Source: Psychrobacter sp. P11F6 (lineage in GTDB: Bacteria; Pseudomonadota; Gammaproteobacteria; Pseudomonadales; Moraxellaceae). From it: DNA of 64,000 nucleotides. The position numbers and the translations under genes are program-made. Shown here piece after piece: positions 40,509-43,522 of the stretch. The notes beneath the pieces were generated by a model. That model ran no database searches and was not told the origin of the DNA. It saw nothing but the letters and a program-made list of their open reading frames with translations. The stretch spans positions 2,170,001 through 2,234,000 of the forward strand of contig NZ_CM003594.1 of NCBI RefSeq assembly GCF_001435295.1, written 5' to 3'. How positions within the stretch are numbered: the first letter of the stretch is position 1; every line of letters begins with the position of its first letter.

Positions 40509-40589
40509 GATGAGTGTTCCTTATTCCTTAACAACTAACCTTTTGCTATAGTGCAATTAATTCAAAACAAGTATCCGGTCATTATTTCC

Positions 40590-41204
40590 ATGTATAAATT
40601 TACTGCTCTCTATTCATTAGCTTTTATCATTTATAGCTGTATTTTTAGTTCTATATCTTGGGCTGAAGCTGCCGAACCAAAATTTGACGCTAGCTTTTAT
40701 ATGTCAAAAATTTGTACTGCATATATGAGTAAAGACGGTTATGAGTATTGCGATGATGGTTATATCCTTAAAAGCGAAACGTTAAATAATGGCGAAGTAA
40801 TAGAAACCGTGCTTATGAATGGAATAGGTCATTACGGCTGGAACCATACTTCGCTCAAAAAAATCGATAAAGATACTTATCATGTCTATATCGGCTGTGG
40901 CAACCCGTGCGGTGCTAATATGCTATTTGGTCGTGGCGGCAAGGAGCAATACTTTGGCCGTTATTTCACCTTTGACCTAAACAGTCGGTGTAGCGTTGGA
41001 TATAATAATGATAAACAATTATGGACGGCTAGCCGATTTTTTTCAGATAAAGAAATCGATTTTCCTTCAACCTATGACCCTGACGCTTTTGCAGCTTACC
41101 CCAAGTACAACGTCGAGTTTGATAAAAAAGGACGTCTCATTGTCAAAGAATACTTCTCAGAAGAAGTGGTTCAAACCTTGCCTAATCCCTGCTCTCATAA
41201 TTAA
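40590..41204 (+). CDS. Secreted protein of unknown function
   Basis: 204 residues from the ATG at 40590 with a signal peptide (FTALYSLAFIIYSCIFSSIS, cleavage probably after WAEA). A GTG at 40551 would add 13 residues; the ribosome-binding site is weak for both. The mature part is acidic with many Tyr/Asp and about six cysteines (for example YIGCGNPCGANMLFGRGG), suggesting disulphides in the periplasm. I do not recognise the family. Single gene. Confidence 0.6.
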   Translation: MYKFTALYSLAFIIYSCIFSSISWAEAAEPKFDASFYMSKICTAYMSKDGYEYCDDGYILKSETLNNGEVIETVLMNGIGHYGWNHTSLKKIDKDTYHVYIGCGNPCGANMLFGRGGKEQYFGRYFTFDLNSRCSVGYNNDKQLWTASRFFSDKEIDFPSTYDPDAFAAYPKYNVEFDKKGRLIVKEYFSEEVVQTLPNPCSHN

Positions 41205-41323
41205 AAAAATTTCATAAATAGCACGACAACAGTTGTCGCATGAAATAAATATTTCTTCAATAATTACAGTGACTTACAAGACAATTTGCTAAAATAATAG
41301 CCAATAAATGAATTGGTAATTTT

Positions 41324-42592
41324 ATGGCCACCATCAATTATGAACGACTACAAGGCAAGCTCAATATTTTAGCGGATGCTGCTAAATATGATGTTTCTTG
41401 CTCATCATCGAGTGGCACGCGCAAAAACCAAGGCGGTGGTCTGGGCGATGCTTCTGCAACTGGTATCTGTCACAGCTATACTGAAGATGGTCGCTGCGTC
41501 AGCTTGTTAAAAATCCTCTTAAGCAATCATTGCATATACGACTGCGCTTATTGCACCTCACGCAAAAGCAATGACACGCCGCGTGCTGCTTTTAGCGTCG
41601 AGGAAGTGGTTGATTTAACCATGCAGTTTTATCGCCGTAACTATATCGAAGGGTTATTTCTTAGCTCAGGTATTTTTAAGAGTGGCGATTATACGATGGA
41701 GCGACTGGTTGAGGTCGCTAAGATATTGCGGACACGTGAACGCTTTAATGGCTATATCCATTTAAAGACCATTCCGGGTGCATCAAAAGAGTTGCTGTTA
41801 GAAGCGGGATTATACGCCGATCGTCTCAGCGTTAATATCGAGATTCCAACGATATCTGGCTTGGCTTTACTCGCACCAGAGAAGTCGCATGATGAATTAA
41901 AAGCACCGATGGAAACCGTTAAAACTGAAATTATTACGATCAAAGAGAGCTGTAAAACCCATAAAAAAGCACCGAAATTTGTGCCAGCAGGTCAAACCAG
42001 TCAAATGATTGTTGGCGCGAGTAACGAGACTGACTTGCAAGTGATTCAGCTATCGAGTCATTTTTATCAGCAATATGATTTGAAGCGCGTCTACTATTCA
42101 GGCTATGTGCCGATGTTGTCTGACAGTCGCCTGCCAGCGATTGGGACGCCTGTGCCAATGATACGTGAAAACCGTCTGTATCAAGCGGATTGGCTGATGC
42201 GTTTTTATGGTTTTGGCGCGCATGAAATCGTTGAACCAGACTCGCCATTTTTAGATTTAGACTGCGACCCAAAGCTTGCTTGGGCAATCCGCCATCGCGA
42301 GCATTTTCCGGTCAATATTCAAACCGCAAGCTATGAGATGATTGTCCGCATTCCCGGTATCGGCACCAAAACGGCTAAAAAGATAGTGAAGGCGCGCAAG
42401 TTTAACCAGTTGACACTTTATCATCTCAAAAAAATGGGCGCGGCTGTCAATCGCGCCAAATACTTCATCGCAACTACCGGAAAAAACGAACATTTAGCGC
42501 ATTTAACGCGTGATAACTTCCGGCAATATGTATTGGCACAGACGCAGACCAAGTATAAAGATCAACGTAATGGACAGCTGGCGCTGTTTTAA
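41324..42592 (+). CDS. Radical SAM protein, putative DNA modification/repair
   Basis: 422 residues. The radical SAM cysteine motif is C70, C74, C77 (HCIYDCAYCTSRKS, the canonical CX3CX2C). A C-terminal helix-hairpin-helix (RIPGIGTKTAKKIVKARKF, near residue 343) gives nonspecific DNA contact. The architecture matches the TIGR03916 family, annotated from context as DNA modification/repair. The next gene, 57 bp away, encodes its usual DUF4130 partner. Reaction and substrate are unknown; an action on damaged or modified DNA bases is inferred from the HhH domain and from UDG-linked relatives of the partner. Confidence 0.87.
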   Translation: MATINYERLQGKLNILADAAKYDVSCSSSSGTRKNQGGGLGDASATGICHSYTEDGRCVSLLKILLSNHCIYDCAYCTSRKSNDTPRAAFSVEEVVDLTMQFYRRNYIEGLFLSSGIFKSGDYTMERLVEVAKILRTRERFNGYIHLKTIPGASKELLLEAGLYADRLSVNIEIPTISGLALLAPEKSHDELKAPMETVKTEIITIKESCKTHKKAPKFVPAGQTSQMIVGASNETDLQVIQLSSHFYQQYDLKRVYYSGYVPMLSDSRLPAIGTPVPMIRENRLYQADWLMRFYGFGAHEIVEPDSPFLDLDCDPKLAWAIRHREHFPVNIQTASYEMIVRIPGIGTKTAKKIVKARKFNQLTLYHLKKMGAAVNRAKYFIATTGKNEHLAHLTRDNFRQYVLAQTQTKYKDQRNGQLALF

Positions 42593-42649
42593 ATAGCACT
42601 GTTGTAATTAGCATTGTTTCAATGATTACTATTTTAAATAGGAATATAG

Positions 42650-43522
42650 ATGTCACAACTGCTGCAAAGCCACGACTATACTGTCGGTCACTTAACACCC
42701 AGCATCGTGCTTTATGAGCCAAGTTTTGAGGGTTGGCTGAGTGCGGTATTTTATGTCTATGCCAATAAACTGCAAAACGATGATTCTCTACAGTTAATCG
42801 CCCAAGACTGCTATGTACCTTCATTAATCGCACAAGCGACTAGCGTTACTACTGATGAAGACAATGCCGAACGCGTACTGACCAAGCTTAATCAGCTCTT
42901 AGGTCGTTCCGGTATGCGCAATATTCTCTGGGGATTTTTATCCGAAAAAGACAATATCGGTACGATTTTATTTCAGGTAGTCAAATATGCCATTGACTAC
43001 CCTAATCGCTCTATCATGGAGGATTTGGGTAATCTTAATGTTTTAGAGCTGGTGCAAACGGTCAAGTCTGTTGGTCGTGAGAAGCATCGTATGGAAGCCT
43101 TTGTACGTTTTGAGCATACCACTGACGATATCTATTTTGCGCGAGTAGAGCCTGATTTTAATGTCTTGCCTTTGATTGGTGAGCATTTTCGTCAGCGCTA
43201 CCAAGACCAACACTGGGCGATTTATGATTTATCCCGTGGCTATGGCATTTATTATGACAAGAGCCAAAGCACGCCATCACGACCTGCGACTTTGCAAACT
43301 ATCACTGATTTAGATGATACCGTGCTGCGCAATCCTGCCAGTATTCATAGCGAGGATGAGCAGCGCTATCAAAAATTTTGGCAAGGTTACTTTACTAACG
43401 TCAACATCAAAGAGCGTAAAAACCTACGTTTGCATAAGCAATACTTGCCGCAGCGCTATTGGAAATACTTAAGCGAAAAACAAGTACTGCCCAATGCTGA
43501 GCATTTACAGAAACGTCGCTAA
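42650..43522 (+). CDS. DUF4130 protein, partner of the radical SAM enzyme
   Basis: 290 residues, matching what I know as TIGR03915/DUF4130. Landmarks: YEPSFEGWLSAVFYVYANK, MEAFVRFEHTTDDIYFARVE, PDFNVLPLIGEHFRQRY and WAIYDLSRGYGIYYDKSQS. In some genomes this domain is fused to a uracil-DNA-glycosylase domain, which is absent here. RBS TAGGAA. It lies directly behind the radical SAM gene, so the two very likely act together. No enzyme activity has been shown to my knowledge. Confidence 0.87.
   Translation: MSQLLQSHDYTVGHLTPSIVLYEPSFEGWLSAVFYVYANKLQNDDSLQLIAQDCYVPSLIAQATSVTTDEDNAERVLTKLNQLLGRSGMRNILWGFLSEKDNIGTILFQVVKYAIDYPNRSIMEDLGNLNVLELVQTVKSVGREKHRMEAFVRFEHTTDDIYFARVEPDFNVLPLIGEHFRQRYQDQHWAIYDLSRGYGIYYDKSQSTPSRPATLQTITDLDDTVLRNPASIHSEDEQRYQKFWQGYFTNVNIKERKNLRLHKQYLPQRYWKYLSEKQVLPNAEHLQKRR

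Follow-up and report, generated by a model that had tools for sequence, protein, structure and literature searches.

On balance, two adjacent genes in the DNA analyzed here, a stretch of 64,000 nucleotides from Psychrobacter sp. P11F6 (contig NZ_CM003594.1, positions 2,170,001 to 2,234,000; hereafter the window), probably form a DNA-damage-inducible repair module in which a radical enzyme acts on DNA lesions presented by a partner with a DUF4130 domain. The first gene (41324..42592, + strand) encodes a 422-residue radical S-adenosylmethionine (SAM) protein, hereafter rSAM, that is a full-length member of the NCBIfam family TIGR03916 (rSAM_link_UDG; 659.6 bits against a curated cut-off of 343.5, model positions 1-414 of 415). 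The second (42650..43522, + strand) encodes a 290-residue member of TIGR03915 (254.1 bits against 112.25) in which DUF4130 is the only Pfam domain and a fused uracil-DNA glycosylase (UDG) domain is absent; DUF4130 occurs only once in this 3.5 Mb genome. Both families bear "putative" DNA modification/repair names in NCBIfam. An earlier reading, made from the sequence alone, had placed two open reading frames with a 57-bp gap on one strand and taken them for a two-part DNA-related radical SAM system. The coordinates and the gap hold, both families lie far over their cut-offs, and the proposal is well supported by the obligate co-occurrence of the two families, by damage-type operators and by a helix-hairpin-helix (HhH) motif. 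Family membership, co-occurrence, operators, invariant cysteines and the UdgX-family domain that stands beside DUF4130 in relatives were all computed here.

Of 200 Pseudomonadota genomes, 31 passed the cut-off for each family, and they were the same genomes (lists compared by hand); the pairing is therefore not due to chance. The named genome loci, which are the best 80 of 590, also linked the two genes physically: tblastn found DUF4130 within the fetched stretch at 76 of the 80, and at 60 of the 63 non-Psychrobacter loci. For the four loci without it (L015, L062, L068 and L073) and for two with a distant or inverted arrangement (L074 and L077), the DUF4130 partner was found in a genome-wide search in all six cases. 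Within this sample the pairing is strict, and in many of the operons the genes overlap by a few bases. Clustering of neighboring genes at the 63 non-Psychrobacter loci gave no other family in more than 8, which sets aside a third recurrent operon gene; the core therefore comprises two genes. One locus (L019) comes from a record labelled Streptomyces cinereus, whose rSAM is 79% identical to the Psychrobacter protein, perhaps because the assembly is mislabelled or contaminated.

We also considered and set aside a phage or defense origin. In a phage collection, rSAM matched 10 records and DUF4130 matched 11, and two of all these were examined. The Acinetobacter "phage" MD-2021a record looks like bacterial chromosome because glyS and glyQ adjoin the pair. 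In Bacteroides phage BKO1-TP1 the DUF4130 gene lies near the end of the record, where phage and host DNA could not be told apart. IMG/VR gave two loci, and PADLOC gave no match for either protein.

Upstream sequences link the pair to the DNA damage response through operators that are unrelated from one lineage to the next, and a repair role is therefore favored. LexA boxes (GAACN7GAAC, GTTCN7GTTC or CTGTN8ACAG) lie upstream of the pair at 27 of 28 non-Psychrobacter Pseudomonadota loci (L084-L111; the miss is L097), against a mean of 0.35 loci and a maximum of 3 in shuffled upstream regions. At the same 28 loci there were 27 matches in 8,680 upstream bases versus 6 in 108,122 other bases. Neither these patterns nor GAACN4GTTC was found at the 63 loci L019-L081, Moraxella and Neisseria included. 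Among 56 Bacteroidota loci, the Bacteroidetes LexA motif CTAAN5TTAG was present at 23 versus 0.29 expected. Three AT-rich control palindromes occurred at none of the 56 and GGAN5TCC was not enriched (3 loci versus 3.83 expected), while the control palindrome AGGN5CCT was over-represented (8 versus 2.44). CTAAN5TTAG was not found in the five stretches at unlinked, distant or inverted DUF4130 genes (L175-L178 and L180). Upstream of the pair in Acetoanaerobium (L172) stands AAACATATGTTC, one base off GAACN4GTTC; the Fusobacterium locus L297 had no GAACN4GTTC-like site. We take the COG1573-COG4277 operon, COG4277 being the HhH/radical SAM protein, to be the TIGR03915/TIGR03916 pair. In its accessible text, PMC8565304 describes, for Bacteroidetes, SOS-type motifs upstream of that operon, and it refers to previous reports of SOS regulation of the operon in Verrucomicrobia and Alphaproteobacteria. 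LexA control is also predicted for CAC3343-CAC3344 of C. acetobutylicum (PMC3828012, accessible text).

The neighbors of DUF4130 raise an alternative that we hold to be rather unlikely, namely uracil-directed base excision with a radical finishing step. UdgX excises uracil and attaches covalently to the sugar. With UdgX-DUF4130-rSAM as the full system, UdgX would excise uracil and stay covalently bound, and rSAM would resolve the UdgX-sugar adduct or process the abasic sugar; Psychrobacter would use abasic sites from another glycosylase. Fusion of DUF4130 to uracil-DNA glycosylase elsewhere had been stated in the sequence-only reading, and the relatives bear this out. The UdgX-family model TIGR03914 was over cut-off in 28 of the 200 Pseudomonadota genomes, 22 of them among the 31 holders of the pair, and it adjoins the DUF4130 match in 21 of these 31, starting at most 10 bases from its end in 20. 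The distance is 182 bases in G155, and in G194 the two matches are on separate contigs, each at a contig end. Caulobacter vibrioides, among the controls of these scans, matched TIGR03914 as well as both families of the pair. Also in favor of this explanation, 16 of 17 fused UdgX-DUF4130 proteins examined carry GEQPGDxED, and their loops are of the R-x-H type (K[KR]R-x-H exactly in 10, a close variant ending in R-x-H in 6, a divergent loop in L109), with the loop histidine presumably the covalent residue of UdgX. The one fused protein that was scanned (L086) matched TIGR03914, and its domain is named UdgX family by NCBIfam. The authors of PMC8565304, in its accessible text, likewise favor base excision repair for the operon. 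However, the DUF4130 proteins examined from Bacteroidota, Moraxellaceae and clostridia are too short for a UDG domain, which makes UdgX an add-on and not part of the core, and six genomes have TIGR03914 over cut-off without the pair (G051, G055, G071 and G171 of genus g65, G139 and G154).

One of these six holds a remnant of DUF4130 with an internal stop (G071:C1:5487547-5487696) beside TIGR03914 over cut-off, and rSAM over cut-off is absent from the genome, which suggests that the pair was lost around a surviving UdgX. On an Azospirillum plasmid (L174), a TnpB gene lies between the rSAM gene and the UdgX-family gene.

The rSAM protein contains the radical SAM cluster motif C70-X3-C74-X2-C77 (41531..41554, + strand) and a C-terminal HhH, both of which had been noticed from the sequence. 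The motif is accompanied by a Pfam Radical_SAM domain (PF04055, residues 65-199, 34 bits against a cut-off of 29.5). An N-terminal triad, C26, C49 and C58 (codons within 41399..41497, + strand), is as invariant as the cluster triad: all six cysteines were kept in 71 of 71 aligned homologues, with the spacing C-x21..29-C-x8-C-x11-CX3CX2C throughout. This second triad may hold an auxiliary cluster. The HhH motif (HHH_3, residues 329-361; 42308..42406, + strand; PF12836 2e-07, PF00633 2.9e-05) sits in the C-terminal quarter of the protein, with P344, G345 and G347 present in all 71 homologues. Searched by sequence against solved structures, rSAM matched only HhH and generic radical SAM chains, the HhH motif weakly resembling chains of RuvA and ComEA (E 0.003, PDB sequence search). 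The AlphaFold model was poor (mean pLDDT, the predicted local distance difference test, 67.4, and below 50 at the N-terminal triad); therefore, we drew no active-site geometry.

In a second look the top match for rSAM was LipA, tied with HydE. The pair might modify DNA under stress and not repair it, by leaving a radical-derived mark such as a thiolation, the auxiliary cluster of LipA being a sulfur donor. We regard this as improbable: the rSAM model is of low confidence, control of the damage type, seen in several lineages, fits repair better, the neighborhood holds no further recurrent partner gene, and PADLOC recognized neither protein. The sequence-only reading had proposed a base repair or modification enzyme; its DNA-related part is well supported, and damage-type control favors repair over modification.

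For the partner, the DUF4130 domain (PF13566) spans residues 104-276 (42959..43477, + strand; 3.3e-50, 170.4 bits against a cut-off of 27). Twelve residues were invariant in 57 of 57 sequences: R153, F154, P168, F180, R183, D193, R196, W244, I253, R256, N258 and P267. Searches by sequence against solved structures gave no match below E 0.29. We tentatively see a weak resemblance of its fold to RecJ/DHH, and the columns that are invariant, or nearly so, in the 57 sequences contain no DHH catalytic motif.

In Psychrobacter itself, the candidate operator is the palindrome ACGACAACAGTTGTCGC (41223..41239, no strand assigned), an exact match to RCGACAN5TGTCGY of the DriD/WYL type. The core CGACAN5TGTCG stands upstream of rSAM exactly in 16 of 17 named Psychrobacter loci and with one mismatch in L013, at 85-110 bp from the rSAM ATG. 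A probable -10 element, TAAAAT (41290..41295, + strand), starts 52 bp past the palindrome core, and its position is kept: of 19 Psychrobacter sequences, in which the gap between site and ATG ranges from 84 to 110, 17 have TAAAAT (TAGAAT in L006) beginning at exactly +52, and L015 and L082 do not. The corresponding spacing is +42 for recA (6 of 6), +47 for ssb (3 checked) and +42 for cas1. The sites would thus center near -71 for rSAM, -61 for recA and -66 for ssb, an arrangement as for an upstream-binding activator. Upstream of rSAM no canonical LexA box was found in the window or in 18 of 19 Psychrobacter sequences, the exception being L017 with one CTGTN8ACAG.

Nine exact RCGACAN5TGTCGY sites occur in the Psychrobacter genome. 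Seven stand beside rSAM, recA, ssb, ruvB, cas1, a DUF3584 gene and a DUF2726/DUF559 gene, and the other two beside an unknown 173-residue gene divergent from a recC-like gene (by eye) and near a LysR gene. As a control we used the reversed pattern, which is also palindromic. Without the flanking R and Y, this genome has 11 exact sites versus 3 control sites, nine of the 11 having been examined. At one mismatch the scan gave no enrichment (38 versus 35), and from it we estimate that about one exact site is expected by chance. Exact core sites numbered 279 versus 89 control sites in 26 Psychrobacter genomes (47 versus 9 in G074 alone), and 140 versus 127, no enrichment, in 37 other Moraxellaceae genomes. 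In five further Psychrobacter genomes (G212, G216, G220, G223 and G224; 40 stretches around sites, G220 being represented by 8 of its 10), sites lie upstream of recA, ruvB and ssb in 5 of 5, of a DUF2726 gene in 4 of 5 and of rSAM in 3 of 5. The 173-residue gene recurs with the palindrome in 4 of the 5. In 14 of the 40 stretches, recA, ruvB, ssb, the unknown gene, the DUF2726 gene and rSAM are all absent beside the site.

Operators common to recA, ssb and ruvB also bear on whether the pair acts on RNA or protein during damage stress. Radical SAM enzymes act on RNA and protein as well, which counts for such a role. The accessible text of PMC13130816 reports, for Acinetobacter Tol 5 at 8% humidity, a transcript of a protein with the rSAM annotation, and rsr rose together with it on desiccation. 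The shared operators and a fusion partner of the UdgX family nevertheless leave little room for this explanation.

The DriD protein is a WYL activator, and its consensus is given as ATACGAC(X)7GTCGTAT in the accessible text of a preprint (PMC12340889). Our Psychrobacter motif was derived before this consensus was known to us, and has the same core. Over the 14 fixed positions of the consensus, the palindrome in the window agrees at 11, and those of L003, L007 and L017 at all 14. A last alternative, to which we give scant credence, is that the upstream palindrome amounts to no more than a hairpin or terminator and that the Psychrobacter pair lacks damage control: T-runs follow the DUF2726 and ruvB copies, which may be terminators also or only, but the rSAM copy has no T-run, the +52 spacing is fixed in 17 of 19 sequences despite varying distance to the ATG (an observation that lowered our estimate for this alternative, slightly higher before), only Psychrobacter shows enrichment over the palindromic control, all five other genomes again have sites ahead of recA, ssb and ruvB, and three rSAM copies match the DriD consensus in full.

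Which protein would read the operator? A profile search of the Psychrobacter genome found no PF00717 (Peptidase_S24; LexA/UmuD) protein, and UmuDAb was set aside as the regulator on this ground. The genome encodes a single WYL protein, with a WYL and a weak WCX domain, and we propose this protein as the candidate regulator of the pair. Genus g112 has the palindrome ahead of the WYL homologue in 3 of 3 genomes, 140 bp upstream in G232, 76 bp in G246 and 140 bp in G257, and in G257 also ahead of an ssb homologue. Three observations weigh against this assignment: no palindrome was found at the Psychrobacter genome's own WYL gene, WYL homologues are present in 27 of the 41 Moraxellaceae genomes, some of them from genera that show no site enrichment, and the WYL protein had no PDB sequence match.

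Several further sites deserve mention. In g112 the palindrome also lies near HNH-like, MoxR-like and SWIM-like genes (by eye; L307, L309, L310, L316, L318 and L325, two genomes each), which are perhaps further members of a WYL regulon. In the Psychrobacter genome, a copy at G000:C1:2460422-2460438 (L186) lies 89 bp upstream of cas1 (Cas_Cas1; type I-F by eye), which suggests that CRISPR may be under damage-linked control in this strain. Another copy (G000:C1:3325442-3325458, L189) lies upstream of the DUF3584 gene, which encodes an SMC-like ATPase that is weakly JetC/LmuB-like in PADLOC. A third (G000:C1:1834332-1834348, L182) separates the recC-like gene from the divergent 173-residue gene, which has no Pfam or NCBIfam match. 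The same holds for a 217-residue open reading frame upstream of the pair (window positions 40551-41204).

These observations can be joined into a mechanism for the repair module. Single-stranded DNA arising after damage would lead a DriD-like WYL activator to bind the palindrome at 41223-41239, upstream of the promoter, and so to switch on recA, ssb, ruvB and the rSAM-DUF4130 operon; in Psychrobacter the activator would stand in for LexA, which controls this operon elsewhere. The DUF4130 protein, as a scaffold of DHH/RecJ type that lacks the DHH catalytic motif, would bind the damaged strand, and in UdgX-bearing lineages it would also recognize uracil or the resulting abasic site. We infer that DNA is the substrate onto which rSAM would dock through its HhH motif. 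SAM would then be cleaved at the CX3CX2C [4Fe-4S] cluster and the 5'-deoxyadenosyl radical would attack the lesion nucleotide, the second cysteine triad probably holding an auxiliary cluster. A bolder version is conceivable, if on present evidence doubtful: a two-cluster rSAM would directly reverse or trim a DNA lesion (abasic, uracil-derived or crosslinked), its RecJ-like and catalytically dead partner serving to read the lesion, and a DriD-like WYL protein would have replaced LexA over recA, ssb, ruvB, the pair and, in this strain, cas1. If true, this would amount to a new chemistry of repair combined with a rewired SOS response.

The sequence-only reading went too far in naming this a candidate for an undescribed system, given that NCBIfam names both families and that PMC3765255 and PMC8565304 cover them in their accessible text, the former having treated DUF4130 alongside SplB-like radical SAM proteins and UDGs as early as 2013. 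In agreement with its view of the reaction, the literature searched gives none for the pair, and in it we found no paper on UdgX together with radical SAM. Already known are the pair itself, its "putative" names and, from the accessible text of PMC8565304, an SOS-regulated operon in other phyla. Transcripts of a protein with the rSAM annotation are also reported, in the accessible text of each paper, for A. baumannii with B12 (PMC12892962) and for a Fusobacterium co-culture (PMC9848294). What appears to be new is the apparent control by a WYL-type regulator in the absence of a LexA-type protein, the invariant cysteine triad and the tentative DHH-like fold. The damage-linked operators name conditions in which to seek a phenotype of these widespread paired enzymes. 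For Psychrobacter, the proposed wiring implies that a regulator of the damage response exists although no LexA-type protein was found in the genome, and its palindrome, short and at a fixed spacing, is an operator open to direct testing. The second cysteine triad likewise yields a testable prediction, two clusters per rSAM protein.

Comparison with known systems places the pair close to several without equating it to any. LipA has three cysteines upstream of CX3CX2C, and rSAM likewise has three invariant cysteines besides that motif, but their spacing is unlike that in LipA, whose substrate is protein-bound octanoate and which lacks an HhH. SplB (spore photoproduct lyase) is, like the proposed rSAM, a radical SAM enzyme in DNA repair. 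It belongs to another sequence family (its model was not among the 15 NCBIfam families found at E 1), and the Psychrobacter protein differs in its extra cysteine triad, its HhH and its obligate DUF4130 partner. SplB is under SOS regulation in several species (PMC8565304, accessible text). The UdgX family (TIGR03914) is shared as a neighbor of DUF4130 by 21 of the 31 relatives that hold the pair, but a profile search of the Psychrobacter genome gave no match to it. According to the accessible text of PMC12340889, the Caulobacter DriD regulon shares the palindrome core ACGAC-N7-GTCGT and LexA-independent control of DNA repair genes, but its targets are didA, bapE, recJ and dnaG. The Psychrobacter site also lies further from the -10 (which is at +52) and does not overlap the -35, and the Psychrobacter WYL protein is a candidate counterpart of DriD. 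In the COG4277-COG1573 operon (PMC8565304, accessible text), taken here to be this pair, the same two families are adjacent and under damage-linked control; the Psychrobacter pair differs in having no UdgX domain and in carrying a DriD/WYL-type palindrome in place of the LexA site, in a genome without a LexA/UmuD-type protein.

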